Source: a virus
IMG/VR virus record: IMGVR_UViG_3300027675_000013
Location: 1 to 43,079 of that record
Direction: 5' to 3' (one strand)
DNA: 43,079 nucleotides
Shown in pieces: positions 4,851 through 42,430 of the stretch. Position numbers and translations under genes: made by a program. The notes under the pieces were generated by a model. It was not told the origin of the DNA. It ran no database searches and was given only the letters and a program-made list of their open reading frames with translations. Numbering within the stretch: the stretch's first letter is position 1; each line of letters opens with the position of its first letter.

Positions 4851-4904
4851 AATAGCTCGTCATAAAAAAATGACTTGCTAAATTTACTTCTTAGGGGGGA
4901 TTAT

Positions 4905-7073
4905 ATGCCAAAATTAACAAAAAATCAAGACTGGTTTTTGGAGGTGAAAAATAACATCAGGCTTGAAAATAATGAAAGTTTTTTCAAGGGCGAAATTCCC
5001 GCTCCTGATGGGACTAAAAAAGCCATGCGTTATGGAACAGGCGAGGGTAAAACCTATAACGCCGCCTATTTTGCTTTGTATAATCTATTTTATACAGATA
5101 AAAAAATAGTTATTTCCACAACGAAAAATGAAAATGTTGAGGATCTTCTTACTGAAATCTTTGACATTTTAAAGGCCAATACTTCAAAAACTGAACCACT
5201 GGCCCAATTTTTAGGTGATGGAATTAAAAAAAGTGTTGGCAAACAGTTGTTAAAAAAGTTAGGTATCAATAAAATGGTTAGTTACAATCAAATAGCTAAG
5301 GATTTACTTGAATCTGCACGGGTAATTATTACAAATCATTCTTATTTTTACCCAAATGGCCATAGTTCATATTATTTTAAGAACATCTTAAAGTTAATGG
5401 AAGTCATCCGGGCCGATGATATCTTTATTATTGACGAGGCCGACGAGTTTGAAAAAATGGCAGAAACTAGCATACAATTAAACGACTTTTTGAAAACTGT
5501 AAAAAGTAGCACAGACAATATTTTAAGACCAGCTAAAAACTGCTTTTCGAGCCGGGATAAAGATGTTTACATTAAAAACGCTGATGAATATCGTTATGAA
5601 TTACCAGTTGAAAATTCAAACATTCGCTTTACTAAAGAAGGGGATTTTGATACTCCGACATATGTATTAGACCAAACAAGTAATAATTTAAATCTGGACC
5701 AGCTAATAAATGAGTTCTATTTTGAAAAACATACCTTTGAAGATATTGGCCGCCGGATAGGTTTTATGATTGATGCTTATGACAATAAATACAAGTTGCT
5801 AAGAGTTTACAAAGGCGAATACCTGGTTGGAAATAATATTAACCACTATAACATTGAAACTAATGATATTTTAAGGTTAATTCAAAATTCAATCGGAGCA
5901 ACTAAAGTTGAGCAAGTTATCCGGTTATTAGATCCGGTCAGTGAAGAATCAATCATTGATTTTGATACCAGAGAAGAATTTGTAAAGTGGTGTCAAAAAA
6001 ATATGACTATCCAGCAATATGATAAAATGCTGAAAAAGTTAATGAATGAGGCTCAGTTACTTTATAAGAGATTTTTAACAGTTAAAAGAAAATCAATCTT
6101 AGATACTTCCAAATGTAGCAATGTGTATTATATCACGGCAACGCCATATAACTTAACTCAATTAGACTATATAGTAGAAAATGGAAAATCAAAGAAGGTT
6201 AACACAATCGAAAATATTGATATGTTCTTTATAAATAGGGATATATCAGTTGACAACTTAGTTATCAACTTGGCGACTGAATGTTTGCTTAATTATAAAG
6301 ATGATATCAATTGTTTGGCCTTTGCGGCTGAGAAAAGAAATGTTGAGAAATTAATTAAATCCAAAAAATATCTTTACAAAGATAAGAAGTATTCTGGTAT
6401 AAAGGTAAAAACTTCGATTAATGATGATTCACTGGTTGACTATAAAGGAATAACCGCAGTATTAGGCGAGGCCGATAACTATGAATATATCAAAGATTAT
6501 TCGTATATAACATATTTAAATAGTCCAGAGGCCACCGGGAAAAATTACAAAGTAAGTAACTTATGTTTAATTAATACCCAGCCGGAAATTAACGCTTTAG
6601 GCCGTCAATTGATTACAAAAGAATATGCCAAATTTATTGACATTGAAGATTCAAGTTTTAGGACCATTCTGCAAGCTTGTGGCCGTATAGAAAGAGCCGA
6701 CAAGGAAAAATATAAGGCAATTATATTTATTGGGAAAAATGAAAGTATTATAGAGAAATACATTATAGAAAAAAAAGGAAATGGCATTAACTATAATTTT
6801 ATGAGTGACAAGACCATTGCACTTGGTGAAAAACACCTTAAAAATAAAATTATAAAAGTTTTTGACCATATCAGGGTTAATCTTACCAGTGATTTTGAGG
6901 AAATTCAACTAAGTTTTGAAGATAACCGAAAAAAACACAATAAATCCGAAATAATTCAATACTTTAATAATTTGATAGCTAATGAAATAGATTCCAAGGA
7001 AGCTAAGAAACAAACTATTTATAAATTCGGTGTTGCTAGAAATTTATTAAATCAATATATTAAGGGCCAATAA
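4905..7073 (+). CDS. DinG/XPD-like superfamily 2 helicase
   Basis: A 722-residue SF2 helicase. Motifs: GTGEGKT at 44-50 (Walker A), TNHSYF near 143 (the TNH motif typical of DinG/XPD enzymes), IIDEADEF near 177-184 (DEAD box), TATP near 411 (motif III) and QACGRIERAD near 590 (motif VI, Q-x2-GR-x2-R). I see no cluster of four Cys for an iron-sulphur domain, so it differs from classical DinG/XPD. ATG 4905 is chosen because AGGGGGG stands before it; an upstream TTG lacks a site. A TATAAT at 4840-4845 may be part of its promoter. One copy of the dispersed 13-mer encodes KEAKK near the C-terminus. The terminator overlaps the stop codon. Confidence 0.85.
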   Translation: MPKLTKNQDWFLEVKNNIRLENNESFFKGEIPAPDGTKKAMRYGTGEGKTYNAAYFALYNLFYTDKKIVISTTKNENVEDLLTEIFDILKANTSKTEPLAQFLGDGIKKSVGKQLLKKLGINKMVSYNQIAKDLLESARVIITNHSYFYPNGHSSYYFKNILKLMEVIRADDIFIIDEADEFEKMAETSIQLNDFLKTVKSSTDNILRPAKNCFSSRDKDVYIKNADEYRYELPVENSNIRFTKEGDFDTPTYVLDQTSNNLNLDQLINEFYFEKHTFEDIGRRIGFMIDAYDNKYKLLRVYKGEYLVGNNINHYNIETNDILRLIQNSIGATKVEQVIRLLDPVSEESIIDFDTREEFVKWCQKNMTIQQYDKMLKKLMNEAQLLYKRFLTVKRKSILDTSKCSNVYYITATPYNLTQLDYIVENGKSKKVNTIENIDMFFINRDISVDNLVINLATECLLNYKDDINCLAFAAEKRNVEKLIKSKKYLYKDKKYSGIKVKTSINDDSLVDYKGITAVLGEADNYEYIKDYSYITYLNSPEATGKNYKVSNLCLINTQPEINALGRQLITKEYAKFIDIEDSSFRTILQACGRIERADKEKYKAIIFIGKNESIIEKYIIEKKGNGINYNFMSDKTIALGEKHLKNKIIKVFDHIRVNLTSDFEEIQLSFEDNRKKHNKSEIIQYFNNLIANEIDSKEAKKQTIYKFGVARNLLNQYIKGQ

Positions 7074-14518: not shown

Positions 14519-14782
14519 ATGGAGGATGAATTTAAACCAAGAATAATGACATTAGATGATTATCATTTTAATTTAGAACGTATTTTAAATATTTCAATCT
14601 ATGATCCAGAAACCAAGGAATTTATTTTTGAAAAAAATGATCATGATTTTGATACTGTTATAAAGCAATTTGATTTTGTTGATGCCGTTTTTAAGGGTAT
14701 TGGTGATTTACATATTGAATTAGAAACTCAACATTATTATGTACACTGTGAAAAAATAAAAGTAATCTTATTTGAAAGTTAA
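14519..14782 (+). CDS. Hypothetical protein, 87 aa
   Basis: An acidic 87-residue protein with many Asp, Glu, His and aromatic residues. TAAGGAGG before ATG 14519 decides the start. A likely beta-rich C-terminal half (LHIELETQHYYVHCEKIKVILF) is preceded by helices. No family recognised. It sits between the ERCC4 nuclease and the methylase. Confidence 0.6.
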   Translation: MEDEFKPRIMTLDDYHFNLERILNISIYDPETKEFIFEKNDHDFDTVIKQFDFVDAVFKGIGDLHIELETQHYYVHCEKIKVILFES

Positions 14783-14804
14783 AATTGAAAGGGGAAAAAT
14801 AAAA

Positions 14805-16121
14805 ATGGAAATTAGTTGCAAATCAATTGAATTAAAAATTGATGAAGAATTTAAGAAATTAATACCACCATTAACTGCAGAGGAAAAGACACAATTAGAA
14901 AACAATATTTTAGATAATGGGTTATTGGCCCCAATATTATTATGGAATGGAATTATAATTGATGGGCATAATAGATATGAGATACTTCAAAAAAATTCTA
15001 TTGAATTAACTGAAAAAGATATATTTGATATGAAAGATATCTTGAAAGATCGGGAGGCCGTTGTTGAGTGGATTCTTAAGAATCAAATGGGCCGCCGTAA
15101 TTTGAATAATGACCAAATGGCTATTATTAGAGGAAAATTGTATTTACTTTATAAGAGACAAGGCCGCCGGACTGACTTAGAAAATGAGACTTCTAATCAA
15201 ACCGAGGGAAAGTCTGAAACTAAGAAGGAAAAACAAGAAACGGCCGTAAAAATAGGGGAGCAGTTTGGCGTATCTAAGGCTACTATTGAAAGAAATGCTA
15301 AATTTGTTAAAGAGGCGCCACCGGAAATAATACAAAAAGTTCAGGACGGCGAATTGTCTATGTTAAAAGCCAAAAATGAAATCAGGACCCAAAAACAAAA
15401 TGAAAAAATCGAAGAGGCCCAAAAAATAGACTTACCAAGTGATATAAAAATATTGGCCGGTGATGTAATGGAACAATTGACAACAATTGAAAATGAATCA
15501 ATTGACATGTTATTAACCGATCCACCATATTATATTTTAGGGGATCAGGAGTGGGATCAATTTGTCGATAAGCAATCTTATTTTAGATTTATTTCTTCCT
15601 GGTTGGAATTGGTCACCAAGAAAATAAAAAGAACCGGCCGCATATATATATCATTCGCTCATGATTATATGTTTGATATTTATCAAATTTTCAAAGAGAA
15701 TAATTTTTATGGATTTACATTTGGAAATGTTCTCATATGGAATATGAAAAACAATGTAAAACCATTTGACAAAAAGCGTTATAGGATAAGTTATGAACCA
15801 ATATTTTATTTATATGGACCAGAGGCCAGCGAAATGAATTTTGATGATAACCCAAAAGTATTACCTTTTGGCGTTCATGACATTGCGGTTCCTCAAAGCA
15901 ACTTTGAGGAGGGTAAATTCCATCCATGCCAAAAACCTTTGGAACTTTATAGGCGTCTTATTCAATCGGGATCTGAATCTGGTGATTTAATAATTGATTG
16001 TTTTGCCGGTTCCGGGACAACTGGCGTTGCTTGTAAAGAATTGAATAGATCGGCAATACTTATTGAAAAAAGTGAAGATTATATAAAGATTGCTAAAGGT
16101 CGTATAAATTCCGTTATATAA
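14805..16121 (+). CDS. ParB-like domain fused to DNA methyltransferase
   Basis: A 438-residue two-domain protein. The N-terminal 95 residues are ParB/sulfiredoxin-like, with IIDGHNRYEIL near 57-67. A helical region with an HTH (KIGEQFGVSKATIERNAKFV) near 148-167 follows. The C-terminal half is an N6-adenine/N4-cytosine methylase: DPPYYI near 237-242 (catalytic motif IV) and DCFAGSGTTG near 398-407 (AdoMet motif I). Motif IV before motif I gives the beta-type order. Such ParB-methylase fusions are common in phages of Gram-positive bacteria and may protect phage DNA from restriction. The target sequence is unknown. No restriction partner is seen. AAAGGGG precedes ATG 14805. Confidence 0.9.
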   Translation: MEISCKSIELKIDEEFKKLIPPLTAEEKTQLENNILDNGLLAPILLWNGIIIDGHNRYEILQKNSIELTEKDIFDMKDILKDREAVVEWILKNQMGRRNLNNDQMAIIRGKLYLLYKRQGRRTDLENETSNQTEGKSETKKEKQETAVKIGEQFGVSKATIERNAKFVKEAPPEIIQKVQDGELSMLKAKNEIRTQKQNEKIEEAQKIDLPSDIKILAGDVMEQLTTIENESIDMLLTDPPYYILGDQEWDQFVDKQSYFRFISSWLELVTKKIKRTGRIYISFAHDYMFDIYQIFKENNFYGFTFGNVLIWNMKNNVKPFDKKRYRISYEPIFYLYGPEASEMNFDDNPKVLPFGVHDIAVPQSNFEEGKFHPCQKPLELYRRLIQSGSESGDLIIDCFAGSGTTGVACKELNRSAILIEKSEDYIKIAKGRINSVI

Positions 16122-21337: not shown

Positions 21338-21358
21338 TATAAAAAAGGGGTGATATTT

Positions 21359-22675
21359 TTGACAGGTGATGAAATATTTAAAATAATTACTAATTGGACC
21401 AGTTCAGATTTATATAAAAGAATGGCCGATGGCCTAAGATATTATAAATGCGGAAATGATGTTTTGAAAAGGAAATTTTATTATTATAAATATGGTGAAA
21501 AAGTCATTGATACCTATAGGGCAAATGTAAAAATAGTTGATGATTTCTTAAAGATCATTATTGATCAAAAAGTAAGTTATTGTTTGGCCAAAGATGTAAT
21601 AATTGATAATGTTAAGGATCTTCCATTCGATATCAACGACGAGATTGATTACGTGGCAGAAGATGCCAGCCAGAAAAGCCGCAGTTGGTGTTTTGTTTGG
21701 ATTGATGAGGCTGGATTATTTAGGCAAAAACAAATAAATTCAGAAATAGTTATACCCCTTTACGATGGAAGTATAGAGGAAAAAATGACTGGTTTAATTC
21801 GGACCTATTCCCTTAATGATGAAGATTTCGCAGAATATTGGGAAGATAATTATAAAACTTTGTACAAGAAAGACGGCTCCAAGTATATAGAAGTATCTAA
21901 GGTAACCCATCTCGATAATAATGTTGGCTGGGGTAAAATTCCCTTTATTCGTTTATTAAATAACCGTTATGAAATGACAGATTTAGACAATATAAAAAGT
22001 TTGATTGATGCCTATGATTACACTATATCAGACTTTGCAAACAATTTTATTGATTTTCAGGAGGTCATTTACAAGTTAGTTAATTATGCCGAAAGTTTGA
22101 AAGATGAACAATCTTTATCTGAATTAGTTGATTTTCTTAAGAAATATAAAATCGTCAGTGTTGATGAAAACGGCGACTTTGACGTTTTAGTTAATGAAGT
22201 ACCCAGCGAGGCCCGGAGCCTATTTCTTGAAATCTTAAGAAAAAACATTTATCAAATGTCTCATAGTGTCGATACTGAAAAATTATCCGGTGGCGACTTG
22301 ACAAATGTTACCATCAAGGCATATTTCACAAACTTAGATCAAAAATGTAATAAATTTTTAAAAGAGTGTAAAAGATATGTCATGGATATGTTATACTTTT
22401 CTAATAAGTATAAAGAATTTAAAAGTCTTCCTTTGGATGATTTGACGAAAGTTAACATTAAGTTTAATAAATCGCAAATTATAAATGAGACTGAAATAGT
22501 TGAATTATTGGTATCAATGGGAATGAGATTATCTAGGGAAACAATGTTGAAGTTAACGCCCTGGGTTGATGATCCAGAGGAAGAAATGAAAAAACTCGAT
22601 AAGGAAGCCGACACAGAGGCCCAATCAATGGACCCAGACCCCACTAAACAAGCTAATTTTAATAAAATTTTATAA
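21359..22675 (+). CDS. Portal protein (SPP1 gp6-like)
   Basis: A 438-residue protein in the portal position after TerL. Typical features: a helical N-terminus with YYKCGNDVLKRKFYYY, TYRANVKIVDDFLKIIIDQKVSYCL near 45-70 (the gp6-type membrane-binding-like helix), the central VGWGKIPFIRLLNN motif near 185, and a long C-terminal helix. Twelve copies form the channel for DNA. TTG 21359 is preferred, since AAAGGGGTGAT lies 8 bases before it. The acidic C-terminal tail ends just before three RNA hairpins. Confidence 0.85.
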   Translation: MTGDEIFKIITNWTSSDLYKRMADGLRYYKCGNDVLKRKFYYYKYGEKVIDTYRANVKIVDDFLKIIIDQKVSYCLAKDVIIDNVKDLPFDINDEIDYVAEDASQKSRSWCFVWIDEAGLFRQKQINSEIVIPLYDGSIEEKMTGLIRTYSLNDEDFAEYWEDNYKTLYKKDGSKYIEVSKVTHLDNNVGWGKIPFIRLLNNRYEMTDLDNIKSLIDAYDYTISDFANNFIDFQEVIYKLVNYAESLKDEQSLSELVDFLKKYKIVSVDENGDFDVLVNEVPSEARSLFLEILRKNIYQMSHSVDTEKLSGGDLTNVTIKAYFTNLDQKCNKFLKECKRYVMDMLYFSNKYKEFKSLPLDDLTKVNIKFNKSQIINETEIVELLVSMGMRLSRETMLKLTPWVDDPEEEMKKLDKEADTEAQSMDPDPTKQANFNKIL

Positions 22676-22681
22676 TAAATA

Positions 22682-22751
22682 TTTAAGTGATAAAACACTA
22701 TAAAATACATTAAGTGGAAACACTATAAAATTTAAGTCTAAGGACTATAAA
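22682..22751 (+). promoter_or_regulatory. Three tandem bulged-A RNA hairpins before scaffold gene
   Basis: Hairpins at 22682-22704, 22710-22728 and 22731-22751 share one design: TTA or TTTA, then AGTG (AGTC in the third), a 4-6-base loop (ATAAAA, GAAA, TAAG), CACT (GACT in the third), one unpaired A, and TAA or TAAA. The G-C pair at the loop end becomes C-G in the third copy, a compensatory change. The third stem ends directly before the ribosome site CGGAGGA (22752-22758) of the scaffold gene. This looks like a translational operator or RNA-processing array; the ligand is unknown. Confidence 0.75.
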
Positions 22752-22763
22752 CGGAGGATTTAT

Positions 22764-23426
22764 ATGGAATGGCTAAAAAAATTGTTAGGGGAAGATAAAT
22801 ATAAAAAATTGGAAGAATCGGGAATGTTAGAAATTTTAAAAACTTCACTTGGTGAAATTGAATATATTCCTAATGACCCCAAACAAGTAATCCCCAAACA
22901 TGTTTTTAATGAAAAAAATGACAGAGTCAAGCTATTAGAAGGCCAAATCACAGAATACGAAAAGCAAGTAAAGGGTATTTCCGGTATGGTGACAGATAAA
23001 ACCATGCAGGAAGAATTAGCCAAGCAAGAAGCGAAATTTAAATTGGAAATAAAAAACCAAGAAACAATATTTAATAGCCAAATAGAAAAGAAAAACAAAG
23101 AATTTTTGTTAACTAACCTATTGGCTAAAGAAGGGGTAAAACATCCAGAATTGCTTCTTAAAGTTATTGATTTAGACAGTGTAATTTTAGCTGACAATAC
23201 TATAGTAAATCATGAAAAGATACTTACCCCATTAAAAGAAGATTATAAGGTTTTATTTTCGCCGCCGCAAGTTACAGGACAAACGCCACCAAAGGGTGAA
23301 ACTACACCACCGGCAAATAATAAAGATGAATTAATAAAACAATTCAACACTTATCAACAAAATGGCGATCCTCGTATGTTTGCGATTCAGAGGCAAATAA
23401 AGGCTTTAGATGAAACTGAAAAATAA
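22764..23426 (+). CDS. Phage scaffold protein (GP20-like)
   Basis: A 220-residue acidic/helical protein directly before the capsid gene. It starts WLKKLLGED, followed by a long coiled coil near 50-125 (KLLEGQITEYEKQV, EELAKQEAKFKLEIKNQE), LLAKEGVKHPELLLKVIDLDSV near 130-150 and a Pro/Thr-rich linker before a basic C-terminus. This is the usual order in GP20-type scaffolds, which guide capsid assembly and then leave. CGGAGGA lies 6 bases before the ATG, abutting the third RNA hairpin. Confidence 0.85.
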   Translation: MEWLKKLLGEDKYKKLEESGMLEILKTSLGEIEYIPNDPKQVIPKHVFNEKNDRVKLLEGQITEYEKQVKGISGMVTDKTMQEELAKQEAKFKLEIKNQETIFNSQIEKKNKEFLLTNLLAKEGVKHPELLLKVIDLDSVILADNTIVNHEKILTPLKEDYKVLFSPPQVTGQTPPKGETTPPANNKDELIKQFNTYQQNGDPRMFAIQRQIKALDETEK

Positions 23427-23440
23427 GGAGTTGAATTTAA

Positions 23441-24439
23441 ATGGCTTATACAGATTCCGAAGACCTGAATTATTTAGGAACATTATTCGCAACTGGAAAT
23501 AGAAAAACGCCTTTTTTGAATGCAATAGGCGCTCCCATTGATGATATGGGTAATATAAATAGCGCGGCTGTTAAAGTCGTAACATCTTTTGAATTCCCTG
23601 TGGCCGTTCCTTTTGATACCGGTTCCGGCGCAGTCCCTAATATTGACGAAGCGGCCTCCGTAACTGGAATTGATGCCGTAACAATAACCAGGGGCCAAGA
23701 CTTGCAAACTTGTCAAATATTTATGCAAAGAGCAGAGGTTAGTTATAAGAAACTTTCAACTTATGGAACTATGGCAATGGGAACCCCTCCAGAGGGCGCA
23801 CACAATATTGATGGTGTTGCAATGGGTATGTCAACCAATATTCCCGGTAATCCTGTAATGAATGAAATGGATTTCCAAGTAATGGGAAGACTTAGAAAAA
23901 TGGCAACTGATATCGACTATACTATTATTAATGGTGTATATCAGGGAGCCGCCTCTGTAAGTACAGCCGCAAAAATGAGGGGTATAAAATCCGCAATTAC
24001 AACTAATGCAACTGCGGCCGGTTCTGTTTACATCTCTCAAACACTTATTAACGCTACACTCAAAAAAATGGTTGATGCTGGAGCCCCAATGACTAACTTA
24101 ATGATGGTCTGTAATTCGTTCCAACGTCAAAAAGTTGGCGCATTATATGAATTTGTCCCTATGTCACGGACTGAGGGCGGTAGCCAAATTCAAAGAGTAT
24201 ATACAGATTTTTGTGAATTTGGTTTATTATATGACCCTAATTGCCCTGCTGGAGAAGTATACTTCACCGATATGGCACAATTAAGAATAGTAATTTGTCC
24301 TGTAACTGGGAAATACATTATAATTGAAGAAAAAAAGACGGCTGGAGCAAGCTTTAGCAAACAGATATATGCTCAAGTTTCACTGGATTACGGTCCAGAA
24401 GAATACCATGGCAAAATTACCGGATTATTGACTTCATAA
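23441..24439 (+). CDS. Major capsid protein (SU10-like, HK97 fold)
   Basis: A 332-residue protein right after the scaffold. The overall sequence fits the SU10/DUF5309 type of HK97-fold major capsid proteins: FATGNRKTPFLNAIG near 16-30, RGQDLQTCQIFMQRAEVSY near 84-102, RLRKMATDIDYTIINGVYQG near 150-170 and VYFTDMAQLRIVICPVTGKY near 270-290. No protease gene is seen, and the N-terminus lacks a delta domain, which fits use of a separate scaffold. A strong hairpin terminator follows the gene. Confidence 0.85.
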   Translation: MAYTDSEDLNYLGTLFATGNRKTPFLNAIGAPIDDMGNINSAAVKVVTSFEFPVAVPFDTGSGAVPNIDEAASVTGIDAVTITRGQDLQTCQIFMQRAEVSYKKLSTYGTMAMGTPPEGAHNIDGVAMGMSTNIPGNPVMNEMDFQVMGRLRKMATDIDYTIINGVYQGAASVSTAAKMRGIKSAITTNATAAGSVYISQTLINATLKKMVDAGAPMTNLMMVCNSFQRQKVGALYEFVPMSRTEGGSQIQRVYTDFCEFGLLYDPNCPAGEVYFTDMAQLRIVICPVTGKYIIIEEKKTAGASFSKQIYAQVSLDYGPEEYHGKITGLLTS

Positions 24440-29763: not shown

Positions 29764-30399
29764 TTGATTGCAACATTAACAGAAATCAAGGCCCTTTTAG
29801 GTATTACGGCAACTACATATGACACGCAAATAAAATCTTATATTCCAGTAGTGGAGGAGGCTATTTGTGGCCATTGTAGAAATGACTTTGTAGATTATAA
29901 GGCCAATGTTTACACTGGTATTAATGAAATAGTTGTTTATGCAAGCAAAGCGACTCTTTCATTTGTTAAATCCACAAATAGTATGAATGATTCTGATAGT
30001 GGGCTGGCTGGATTGAATTTTAAGGCTGGCGATTCAGTACGAGTTTATAATAGTATACATAACGACCAAATTTTTACTATTAAAACAGTGGCCGCCGGAT
30101 CTATTGTTTTTGAAGATGTTGACACGGTTAATGATGAAGCGGCCGGGACGTCAATATTAGTTGTTCGCTTGGCTTGGCCTAAAGATTTAAAAGATGTAGT
30201 CGCTAATATGATTAAATTTAAACTTGACAAAAAGGTCAATATGGCTTTAAAGTCAGAGACTTTTAATGATTATAGTTACACAACCGCCGACCAAAAGGAA
30301 TATATTAATGGTTATCCTAGAAGCATAATGGCTGGTTTAAAGAATTATAAGTGTATGATAAAAAAATCATTCCCTTTAGCCGCCTTATATGATAGATAG
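29764..30399 (+). CDS. Head-tail adaptor/connector-like protein, 211 aa
   Basis: The N-terminus IATLTEIKALLGI, then DTQIKSYIPVVEEAICGHCRNDF matches the helical start of gp6/YqbG-type head-tail connectors. A beta-rich insertion (about 55-130) precedes helices with LKDVVANMIKFKLDKKVN, ending with a Tyr-rich tail. Such proteins dock below the portal. TTG 29764 is the start, with GAGGGGTGAT upstream. The place after the tail chaperones is unusual; connectors normally follow the capsid gene. Confidence 0.65.
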   Translation: MIATLTEIKALLGITATTYDTQIKSYIPVVEEAICGHCRNDFVDYKANVYTGINEIVVYASKATLSFVKSTNSMNDSDSGLAGLNFKAGDSVRVYNSIHNDQIFTIKTVAAGSIVFEDVDTVNDEAAGTSILVVRLAWPKDLKDVVANMIKFKLDKKVNMALKSETFNDYSYTTADQKEYINGYPRSIMAGLKNYKCMIKKSFPLAALYDR

Positions 30400-40289: not shown

Positions 40290-40773
40290 TTGATTTTTCC
40301 TCCCTTAATAATTTATATTTGCGGTTCATTTCCACAATTTCACTTATCCAGCCAATAGACAATAATTCATTAAATCTCTCAGATATAAGATCCTTACCAC
40401 AATAAAAATAATTTGAAATCAATCTGTTCCCCTCTTTTGTATATATCCCGTCTATGGCTTTATCTTTCATGTATATATACATCATTTCTAATTGACAATG
40501 CTTAGATAGCTTTTTAAAATTTTGGCGGTTATTTTCGTTAAATTCGGGGTCATTTTCTGGGGAAATAACATCACACTTTCCGCCGCCGCCACCTTGAAAG
40601 TATACTATAGTTGATTTTCCTTCTAAAAAATTCCTTAAATGAGTTTCTGAAAATTTGCTATTGTGTGGCGGCTTTATCGGGTAAAGGGGATTTATTAAGA
40701 TCGGCTTTACCTCTGGTTGGTTTAGCGTAACCAATTTCCTTAATTGCTTCAAAAACTCTATTATGTTTATCAT
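40282..40773 (-). CDS. Putative winged-helix protein, 163 aa
   Basis: The second half is helical and ends with a region resembling a winged helix (LISERFNELLSIGWISEIVEMNRKYKLL), as in replication or transcription regulators. A run of five Gly (QGGGGGK) near 60 is unusual. The first 39 codons overlap the FtsK-like gene (116 bases) in another frame. Since AAAGGGGGTG lies 10 bases before ATG 40773 and no good internal start exists, the overlap seems real. No family recognised. Confidence 0.6.
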   Translation of the reverse strand: MINIIEFLKQLRKLVTLNQPEVKPILINPLYPIKPPHNSKFSETHLRNFLEGKSTIVYFQGGGGGKCDVISPENDPEFNENNRQNFKKLSKHCQLEMMYIYMKDKAIDGIYTKEGNRLISNYFYCGKDLISERFNELLSIGWISEIVEMNRKYKLLREEKSNE

Positions 40774-42430
40774 CTATATACACCCCCTTTAATTTGTAAA
40801 TAATCCCTTTTTCATCTTTGAAACAAAAATAACCCTGCTCTTGATGCATTGCATAATCATAATAGTCTGGACTTTCTAACATATATTTTATTTCGGATGA
40901 TTCAGCAAATTTATGTATTGCTCTCCCATCAATAGAAACTCTCCACGATTTATAATATTGGTCGTCGGTGGCCTTTTGAATTATGTCTAATATATGGAAT
41001 CCAACCGACCTTGATTTAGTTAGAAAATATGTTCTAATATCTTTGTAATTCATTTCTTGAGTTTCGGTCCCAAAATCAATAGTGTATTCTTTTTTATAAT
41101 TCATTTGGACCGGTGTGTTAATTTCATCACTAACAATTAGGAAATAAGGCAGTGGATTATCTGGGAACATTTTATTATACTGTCCAATGTCCCGACATTC
41201 TATCCCAGTATCAAAAGTAACATCTTCAAATATTTTTAACCTTCTTTTAAATTCAGCAATCAAGTTAATATAAAATTCCATTTGGGCCGATTCTGAGTCC
41301 TCCAGCATATGAATATTTTTAATGCCTCTATATTTATTCATGGCGGACCTTTTGAAATCGGTTATGAATATAACTAACTTATCGTAACTATAATATTCCA
41401 TTCCATCAATCCACGTGTTAGCTGTGCAACTTTTACCGGTGTTAGTCATGCCGCCAACTATAGCGTGGGTTAATTTTGTCATGTCGGAAAATACTACTTT
41501 ACCATTGGTCGGATTAATTCCAACTATAAAAGGTAAGATCATATCTTTTGGCGGTCTTACTGTCTCTATAACTTCATCTAGGTAATAGATTTTATTTTCT
41601 AATTTTTTGATTTTAAATTCATAGTTACCGCCATTAGTTGTAACTTCTAAACTACCCGGTTTAATTCCCAATTTATGAGTAACTTCGTTTAATTCTCTGT
41701 TTAAGAATTTTAGCTTAATTTTGGACTGATAAATATATATGTCCTGATATTTGTCAGTTGTTGCACTTACAAAATTTGGTAACCCCTTCATGTCTTTTAG
41801 TATCTGTTCTAACCGGTCCCGGCTTCCTATTTCCATCTTACTATATCTATCATCGAAACCCTTTTTATACTTAACATAATAAATATTTCTATTGAATATG
41901 TCGTTTTTTATCTTGGTAACGGTAGAATTTGTGATAATATTTAATTGGTTTTTATGTGTTTCTGTTAGTGGGATATTGGATTTTAATGTCAATACGCCCC
42001 TAACATTTTCTATTAAATTTACATCATTTTTAAAACTTTTTTCTAAATTATTTACAATCTTTGTAGTTTTTTTGAAATTCCAAATAATAAATCTTATTAA
42101 GTCTAATGGATAAGCTAATATTAAGGGTAAAAACAATGATTTAAGGGGGAAATTACGTTTTATTATTAGCAATCCAACCAGAACAAACAAAGCAATTAAA
42201 AACCCAATAACCCCTCTAAAATCTAGTTTAAAAAAATATTCATGAGTTAACCGCATCATTGAAAACAGTTTAACCCTTTTTTTTTGCTTTTCCATGGCCA
42301 ATTTTAGCATTTGGGAAAACAAAATAAAAAATAAACTAAATAGTGGGTTTTGGCCGAAATATTCGAGGGCTATTCCGATAACGCAAAATGAAATTATTTC
42401 AAATTTTGTTATTGATATTTTATTATTCAT
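40658..42430 (-). CDS. FtsK/TcpA-like DNA translocase or coupling ATPase
   Basis: A 590-residue protein. Three or four membrane helices lie in the first 125 residues (about 8-45, 74-92, 99-117). Then come a cytoplasmic linker and an FtsK-type ATPase domain with Walker A GGMTNTGKSC near 324-333, a Walker-B-like strand LVIFITDFKRS near 354 and a second IVSDEIN strand near 431. The order resembles coupling proteins of Gram-positive conjugative elements such as Tn916 Orf21 and ICEBs1 ConQ. It may move or segregate phage DNA at the membrane. No relaxase is seen. AAGGAGGT precedes the ATG. Confidence 0.8.
   Translation of the reverse strand: MNNKISITKFEIISFCVIGIALEYFGQNPLFSLFFILFSQMLKLAMEKQKKRVKLFSMMRLTHEYFFKLDFRGVIGFLIALFVLVGLLIIKRNFPLKSLFLPLILAYPLDLIRFIIWNFKKTTKIVNNLEKSFKNDVNLIENVRGVLTLKSNIPLTETHKNQLNIITNSTVTKIKNDIFNRNIYYVKYKKGFDDRYSKMEIGSRDRLEQILKDMKGLPNFVSATTDKYQDIYIYQSKIKLKFLNRELNEVTHKLGIKPGSLEVTTNGGNYEFKIKKLENKIYYLDEVIETVRPPKDMILPFIVGINPTNGKVVFSDMTKLTHAIVGGMTNTGKSCTANTWIDGMEYYSYDKLVIFITDFKRSAMNKYRGIKNIHMLEDSESAQMEFYINLIAEFKRRLKIFEDVTFDTGIECRDIGQYNKMFPDNPLPYFLIVSDEINTPVQMNYKKEYTIDFGTETQEMNYKDIRTYFLTKSRSVGFHILDIIQKATDDQYYKSWRVSIDGRAIHKFAESSEIKYMLESPDYYDYAMHQEQGYFCFKDEKGIIYKLKGVYIDDKHNRVFEAIKEIGYAKPTRGKADLNKSPLPDKAATQ

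Follow-up and report, generated by a model that had tools for sequence, protein, structure and literature searches.

Tandem RNA hairpins ahead of a phage scaffold gene and comparable arrays in the scaffold leaders of other phages

Three short hairpins stand in tandem between the portal and scaffold protein genes of IMG/VR virus record IMGVR_UViG_3300027675_000013, whose full stretch of 43,079 bases is referred to here as the window, and the array is kept at the same place, in two or three copies, in the relatives L001 to L004. Judged by this conservation, by its position and by the covariation found in a related family of arrays, it is probably a conserved RNA element that acts in cis within the scaffold-capsid message. 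A first-pass annotation of the window had read the hairpins as a translational or processing control element before the scaffold gene, which is still the best reading and is partly supported by the comparisons reported below.

The hairpin array of the window and its closest relatives

The portal protein gene (441 aa, + strand, 21350-22675; phrog_64 portal, E 1.6e-86) is followed by the gene of a 220-aa scaffold protein (+ strand, 22764-23426), which matches phrog_194 (E 5e-21) as well as Pfam PF06810 Phage_scaffold (73.8 bits, cut-off 35). Between the scaffold stop and the start of the major capsid protein gene (332 aa, + strand, 23441-24439; phrog_1328 major head protein, E 5.8e-26) lie 14 nt, and the two genes presumably share one message. 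The whole element is located inside the 88-nt gap from the portal stop to the scaffold start (22676-22763, + strand), which has a G+C content of 23%. Elsewhere in the window, a 732-aa open frame on the + strand (4875-7073) has no match in PHROGs or Pfam, an N6/N4 DNA methyltransferase with a ParB-like N-terminal part is encoded at 14772-16121 (+ strand), and an FtsK/SpoIIIE-like protein (phrog_1358, Pfam PF01580) at 40658-42430 on the - strand, near the record end.

Hairpin 1 (22686-22699) has the form AGUG-AUAAAA-CACU, hairpin 2 (22713-22724) the form AGUG-GAAA-CACU and hairpin 3 (22735-22746) the form AGUC-UAAG-GACU, all on the + strand and with the inner stems and loops given in the first-pass annotation. 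Each is directly followed by AUAAA, as part of the tails AUAAAA (22700-22705), AUAAAA (22725-22730) and AUAAA (22747-22751, all + strand). The pair closing the loop, G-C in the first two hairpins, is switched to C-G in the third, and this compensatory change, already noticed in the first pass, is kept in L001, L002 and L003/L004. Hairpin 3 ends 6 nt before the Shine-Dalgarno sequence GGAGG (22753-22757, + strand), in agreement with the closeness described earlier, and its foot is 17 nt away from the scaffold ATG. The Shine-Dalgarno sequence itself is single-stranded in the predicted MFE and centroid structures.

The tandem arrangement is real. A search with the pattern TTAAGTN..ACTATAA gave three matches in the window, all of them in the scaffold leader (22683-22703, 22710-22728 and 22732-22750 with the outer parts included), against 0.03 expected from dinucleotide shuffles. 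For counting, a strict unit was defined by at least 4 Watson-Crick pairs, at least 2 of them G-C, a loop of 4-8 and AAA within 4 nt, while the loose definition is without the G-C demand. The window leader contains three strict units, and at least two were reached in 0 of 2000 shuffles; the corresponding numbers for L001, L002 and L004 are 3, 3 and 2 units, with at least two in 0, 3 and 2 of 2000 shuffles, respectively. Among 120-nt segments taken every 20 nt on both strands of the window, three units occur only in the three segments covering this leader, and the 54 leaders of other genes in the window, L001, L002 and L004 include one with two units and seven with one. By the loose definition at least two units are reached in 38% of the shuffles of the clade's four leaders; this count is uninformative because the leader is A+T-rich, and only the strict count is telling. 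The folding energy of the window leader is only moderately unusual (MFE -10.1 versus -5.95 +/- 2.01 for shuffles, z -2.06, with 9 of 200 shuffles as good), and for the L001 leader z is -2.64.

The relatives L001 to L004 originate from the first capsid search of viral contigs, with capsid identities to the window of 83% (L001), 77% (L002) and 58% (L003 and L004); the leader of L003 equals that of L004, and L003 was left out of the clade counts. Stem and loop of hairpin 1 are the same in all four relatives despite an identity of 32-48% at the 4-fold degenerate sites of the portal, scaffold and capsid genes (112 of 235 sites or 48% in L001, 86 of 211 or 41% in L002, 52 of 162 or 32% in L004), and its tail is identical in L001, L002 and L004. 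Hairpin 2 is present in L001 and L002, where its tail reads AUAAAU in the latter, and absent in L003/L004. All clade members have the stem AGUC/GACU in the last hairpin, with UAAG, UAUU or AUCCU as its loop. The loops had been thought to differ freely, whereas in fact AUAAAA is found in copy 1 of all four leaders counted and GAAA wherever copy 2 exists, so that both are constant across the clade and only the last loop varies.

The same comparison concerns the outer UUA/UAA helix with one bulged A, which had been proposed as part of the common design. It can be drawn in all three copies of the window, but no more than 5 of the 11 units in the window, L001, L002 and L004 have all its three pairs, whereas AUAAA after the stem is invariant (11 of 11). 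For the first and last copies of both L001 and L004, a U immediately upstream of the stem gives a fifth pair that leaves no bulge. Some copies have the bulged-A outer helix, but it does not characterise the element as a whole.

Neither within 22600-22850, where only weak plant-virus pseudoknot matches on the other strand were obtained, nor in the rest of the window was an Rfam family found, and a riboswitch or other Rfam family was rejected for want of a match. Two further nucleotide matches look like chance, namely an exact 19-mer in L146, where no scaffold gene is recognisable nearby, and the top blastn match of the leader against phages, in Lactococcus phage Q33, which is far from the head genes. 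Capsid-profile scans of the genome collection found no relative.

Comparable arrays in other scaffold leaders

When sequences were scanned for GGAGG preceded by two ACTATAAA tails, 33 stretches were obtained, comprising four of the window clade, the locus L168 and 28 others, which were judged from their context lines and taken for chance. L168 contains two perfect copies of AGUUC-AGAGAA-GAACU-AUAAAAACGC, after which come a gene taken for the scaffold gene by its place and length and then one whose product is distantly homologous to the capsid protein (39% identical where aligned). This locus bridges the design of the window and that of arrays with AGNGAA loops. With the capsids of L168 and of the gut phage MT835537.1 as queries, 80 loci were collected, the best 80 of 152. 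L200, L247 and L250 (no usable scaffold or start) and L201, L225, L235 and L249 (evidently wrong starts) were dropped, and the remaining 73 loci were reduced to 50 leaders by removing leaders at least 80% identical without gaps; starts were chosen by script from the best Shine-Dalgarno sequence.

In these 50 leaders from the best 80 of 152 loci, hairpins of 3 or more pairs around an AGNNAA-type loop occur two or three times in 45, once in 4 and not at all in one. The loops of the 119 hairpins are mostly AGGGAA (48), AGAGAA (28), AGUGAA (18) and AGACAA (16), the tail AAA(N)CGC is present in 49 of the 50 leaders, and the last AGNNAA-type hairpin is placed 19-29 nt from the start codon in 47 of 49. 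Under the loose definition 40 of the 50 leaders reach at least two units, as do 4.0% of shuffles; under the strict definition 27 do, compared with 0.9% of shuffles and with 5 of the 317 leaders that precede other genes of these loci, and 5 of the 50 lack any strict unit. The motif is also concentrated in place: in the same loci, at least 4 flanking pairs surround 102 of 192 AGNNAA motifs in the leaders versus 14 of 3426 elsewhere, and tandem motif pairs are found in 40 of the 50 leaders versus one in 305,417 nt elsewhere.

For an analysis of covariation, the last hairpins of 47 leaders were aligned (A8), leaving out one leader without such a hairpin and two in which the last hairpin lies 62-63 nt from the start. 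Changes on both sides of a pair are seen in 78 of 188 cells, compared to a shuffle mean of 25.6, and none of 500 shuffles reaches 78; the covariation score is 1.113 versus 0.233 in shuffles, and 98.9% of the cells pair versus 51% after shuffling. The three inner pairs were a selection criterion and are part of this signal by construction, whereas the fourth pair, which was not selected for, is formed in 45 of the 47. A fifth pair is down to 41 over all 119 hairpins of the best 80 of 152 loci. That 4 of 4 pairs show a double change somewhere is uninformative, as shuffles do the same. Since the folding energies are not unusual (z -1.12 and -0.61 for two gut leaders, 0.03 for L168), the signal of this wider family is covariation and repetition, not stability.

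A model built from the AGNGAA-loop hairpins (R1) was searched against 38 sources and finds three records outside its building set: MT835537.1 in two places (E 2.9e-11 and 1.3e-10) and MT836094.1 (E 1e-9), in both records just before the scaffold start, and MT835477.1 (E 5.3e-6 and 2.4e-3), where the scaffold start was inferred; the remaining matches have E above 0.4. No Rfam 15 family falls on the AGNGAA-type hairpins at E up to 1 in nine loci. With a 47-sequence alignment, its covariation and model R1, the AGNGAA-loop array is a well-supported candidate RNA family. As a separate observation, gut-2 RNA (RF02990) matches just below its threshold of 39.8 at L168 1851-1898 (34.5 bits) and L197 2240-2287 (38.2 bits), a little upstream of the scaffold leader in both, and gut-2 may belong to phage head operons.

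A second collection (set N) consists of the leaders of 17 named phages, chosen by portal and scaffold similarity lists and annotation and not by hairpins, together with those of the gut phage records MT835537.1 and MT836094.1. Left out after fetching were L192 (Dulem 32), L193 (Eggerthella EL753P1), L195 (Mendokysei) and L283 (EG103P3), in which no clear array was seen by eye, L277, in which no scaffold gene was identified, and L281, which was found by model R1. Of the 19 leaders, 14 have at least one strict unit (14.6% of shuffles) and five have two (0.7% of shuffles); the unit is missing in the other five, those of PLE3, VD13, Sfi11, CDKH02 and, as annotated, phi11. Typical units read CGUG-GCGUUG-CACG-UAAAACUCG in phiMR11, CGCC-AAGACAA-GGCG-UUAAAC and CGUG-GUCGUCU-CACG-UAAAAAUGAC in Javan215, CGUG-AGGUGUGA-CACG-UAAAAAAAC in 000TH010 and CGUGG-CCGUAA-CCACG-UAAAAAAACG in phiOH2. 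The nearest look-alike of window hairpin 3, AGUC-GACA-GACU-AUAA, stands right before the annotated start of phi11 and was not counted, as the leader ends at the annotated start. In this Staphylococcus phage (L279) the AGTC-GACA-GACT hairpin at 1700-1716 ends 4 nt before the annotated scaffold start, and, provided this annotation is correct, the GGAGG after it would belong to the coding sequence. Hairpin elements thus located precede scaffolds of PF06810, the scaffold of L251 without a Pfam match and, by eye, PF14265 in phi11, and phages of Bacillus, Lactococcus, Streptococcus and Staphylococcus hosts are among those that carry them.

One sub-type of these pre-scaffold hairpins is already on record as a candidate cis-regulatory RNA, namely GP20-b (RF03003, type Cis-reg, gathering threshold 36.2 bits). 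It matches phiOH2 (48.0 bits) and Jimmer2 (40.3 bits) before the scaffold gene, and Lactococcus phage 58502 (40.4 bits) across the annotated scaffold start. In 58502 (L292) the match at 2410-2468 overlaps a GTG start annotated at 2442, which may have been placed too far upstream. Matches below the threshold in scaffold leaders of Lactobacillus phage S16 (26.2 bits), Javan215 (21.9) and phiMR11 (11), and in two of 11 gut-family records (L254 with 17.1 and 14.3 bits, L251 with 11.9), count little because 9 of 14 control genomes also match below threshold. The first-pass remark that such hairpins are not a standard element of dsDNA phages does not hold in view of this Rfam entry and of the wide occurrence of pre-scaffold hairpins with A-rich tails.

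The window array shares its place with GP20-b, which, going by its name, we take to be defined upstream of a GP20/PF06810 scaffold gene: it is directly upstream of a PF06810 scaffold gene. Both have small tandem hairpins, two in GP20-b, the second of which is followed by a UAAAA-type tail, but the stems of the window are AGUS/SACU, its loops AUAAAA, GAAA and UAAG, and its final tail AUAAAC-GGAGG has the A-rich part without the GCGUA of the GP20-b consensus. GP20-b has no match at gathering in the window and none at E up to 10 in either 22600-22850 or the whole record, nor at E up to 10 in L002 and L004; its one match in the L001 record (7.8 bits, contig 30040-30115) is outside the scaffold leader. 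Likewise, the AGNGAA arrays resemble the window in having two or three tandem hairpins with short stems (three strict units within 120 nt of the scaffold start in the window), an A-rich tail, the last hairpin just before the Shine-Dalgarno sequence, and scaffold and capsid genes downstream, and differ in the loop AGNGAA/AGACAA and the tail AAAACGC, which are not in the window. Model R1 gives no match at 22676-22763 at E up to 10 with filters off, and none in the search of the 38 sources with default filters. When the hairpins of the window are ranked by a tail profile, the three of the array come 10th, 54th and 105th of 368 after training on the larger family and 18th, 30th and 77th of 371 after training on set N; with these ranks, sequence homology of the window hairpins to the wider set is not supported, the 23% G+C of the leader leaving little homology signal. 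The window array can be called a variant on the grounds of position and architecture, but its membership in the GP20-b or AGNGAA families is not proven, and common descent with them is plausible from position and architecture only.

Pairing at the same position was also proposed in the first pass as a test among related phages. It is conserved in L001-L004, and not in the more distant L136-L141 and L150-L159, which have other or no structures there. At least two strict units were found in none of 4 leaders of L136-L141 (one unit in 3; at least two loose units in 2) and in none of 8 leaders of L150-L159 (one unit in 1), the near-duplicates L139 and L140 (close to L138 and L137) and L152 and L155 (close to L151 and L154) being uncounted; L142 ends before its scaffold gene. 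The gene upstream of the scaffold is a different one in L137-L141, and tRNA-like or pseudoknot-like structures are found at the junction in L136-L141.

Several of these junctions carry structures of their own. tRNA-like elements with an acceptor stem and a T arm are seen by eye at about 4180-4240 in L138 and L139, at about 4205-4255 in L141 and, in a longer form, at about 180-270 in L136; ARAGORN detects no tRNA at these four elements, and Rfam yields no more than a weak match to the T arm in L141. In L137-L140, ACTCT-TAGCT-AGAGT-ATAAAAA-AGCTA, located about 20-50 nt upstream of the scaffold start, could form an H-type pseudoknot just ahead of the Shine-Dalgarno sequence, which an alternative pairing CTCCT/AGGAG would hide. 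The idea of a preQ1-like pseudoknot arose from these loci, not from the window, and was rejected, Rfam giving no match in L137-L139. In Streptococcus phage Javan215 (L282) a tRNA gene (2347-2417, Rfam 64.8 bits) occupies the pre-scaffold gap upstream of the hairpins, in Streptococcus phage IPP31 (L290) a skipping-rope RNA (RF02924; 1768-1853, 50.0 bits, threshold 36.7) sits between the head morphogenesis and scaffold genes, and the junction of phiCDKH02 has a 12-bp terminator-like hairpin.

Possible roles of the array

We tentatively favour, with somewhat less than even confidence, a multi-site RNA operator for scaffold and capsid dosage that would be filled by unassembled head protein. The hairpins would serve as copies of a single type of binding site, with loop, stem base and A-rich tail as the features that the protein recognises. 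Without bound protein the Shine-Dalgarno sequence would be single-stranded and the scaffold gene, unlike the upstream portal gene, translated at a high rate; by analogy with the P22 scaffold gene, excess unassembled scaffold or capsid protein would load the array cooperatively. Judged by the footprint of the 30S subunit, a distance to the start of 17 nt in the window, and mostly of 19-29 nt in the larger family, would bring the last site to the upstream 30S edge, and this site, once filled, would block initiation of the scaffold gene and of the capsid gene downstream. A head protein as the binder is the weakest step of this model. The lineage-specific loops (AUAAAA/GAAA, AGNGAA and others) suggest a lineage-specific phage protein, while the common A-rich tail suggests a contact shared by all hosts.

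The operator is favoured because of the compensated stems together with conserved loops, the two or three copies and the short distance to the start, and also because scaffold dosage is subject to feedback in P22. Wyckoff and Casjens reportedly described in 1985 that the P22 scaffold gene is under its own posttranscriptional feedback, and we know of no such hairpin array in P22. The likeness lies in the scaffold gene as the regulated gene, the phage type and host being different. P22 scaffold autoregulation is cited in the accessible part of PMC5744158, and the accessible part of PMC8040213 holds nothing on scaffold genes. The first-pass comparison with MS2 fares less well. Like the MS2-type coat-protein operator, a bulged-A hairpin present in a single copy before a phage gene, the array places short hairpins, candidate sites for a structural protein, just ahead of a phage gene; yet the window clade has two or three copies instead of one and another loop, and belongs to a dsDNA phage. 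The likeness depends on the bulged A; since this is not conserved, with the full outer helix in 5 of 11 units, a bulged-A operator design of the MS2 kind was rejected. Against the operator in general, several scaffold families follow the element, which a single mode of scaffold-RNA recognition would not predict, and the Shine-Dalgarno sequence free in both MFE and centroid means that there is no built-in switch. The unremarkable folding energies of two gut leaders and L168, the failure of GP20-b and model R1 to recognise the window, the two units before one other gene of the clade, and the leaders without strict units in set N and the larger family, or without two of them in L136-L141 and L150-L159, also count against it.

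The variety of scaffold families is easier to reconcile with a host factor and thus with mRNA processing, a close rival to the operator that we nevertheless hold to be rather unlikely. A host endoribonuclease would cut within the A/U-rich tails and separate the portal from the scaffold-capsid message, and hairpins at the new 5' end would protect the latter, giving few portals and many scaffolds and capsids with no need for a specific phage protein. This reading is favoured by the A-rich spacers that separate the short stems of the observed sub-types and by the other RNA structures that occupy the junction elsewhere (the tRNA of Javan215, the tRNA-like elements of L136, L138, L139 and L141, the phiCDKH02 hairpin). 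Conserved loops (AGNGAA; AUAAAA and GAAA) are unnecessary for stabilisation, however, stems of 4 bp would be weak protectors, and a position so near the start codon (17 nt; mostly 19-29 nt) points to initiation. Initiation would be the target as well if the A-rich tails and purine-rich loops acted as a ribosome standby site or made S1/30S contacts, while the stems held the region open. The sub-types do have in common an A-rich tail (AUAAA, UAAAA or AAAACGC) a short way before the Shine-Dalgarno sequence, and the Shine-Dalgarno sequence is unpaired in the predicted fold, but such an enhancer leaves the compensated stem changes and the two or three copies unexplained, and we regard it as improbable.

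Still less probable is a role at the level of DNA, as tandem promoters or operators, for instance late promoters read by a single-subunit phage RNA polymerase, or sites where a regulator binds DNA. Inverted-repeat halves and the CACTATA of copies 1 and 2, which we take to resemble T7/SP6-type promoters, would fit this, whereas a loop or spacer of 4, 5 or 6 among copies and phages breaks a fixed promoter spacing, and the larger family conserves loop and tail, not half-sites. Moreover, no RNA polymerase was found among the 30 window proteins compared with PHROGs, out of 98 listed open frames, a negative that the unmatched 732-aa orphan weakens, and no sigma-70-like promoter was found on the + strand at 22500-22900. 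A promoter array was rejected on account of the variable spacing and because these 30 proteins include no recognised polymerase, and an intrinsic terminator because none was found. There is, finally, only a very slight chance that the hairpins are functionless repeats from local duplication: copies 1 and 2 do share stem and tail, but the array is preserved at 32-48% synonymous identity with its closing pair compensated, and arrays occupy the same place in many other scaffold leaders.

Extended beyond the window clade, the operator reading would have the scaffold genes of many Gram-positive-type siphophages under common multi-site RNA operators that are bound by a head protein and shut scaffold and capsid translation, a generalisation that we consider possible but doubtful. 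If true, an operator class would be defined by two or three small hairpins whose loops are specific to the lineage while the A-rich tail is common; the window would be its minimal A+T-rich form, GP20-b one sub-type and the AGNGAA array, unreported by Rfam 15, a second. To our knowledge, how scaffold, portal and capsid are proportioned in tailed phages is little known outside a few models. A recurrent RNA element before the scaffold gene makes this question testable, by finding what binds the array.
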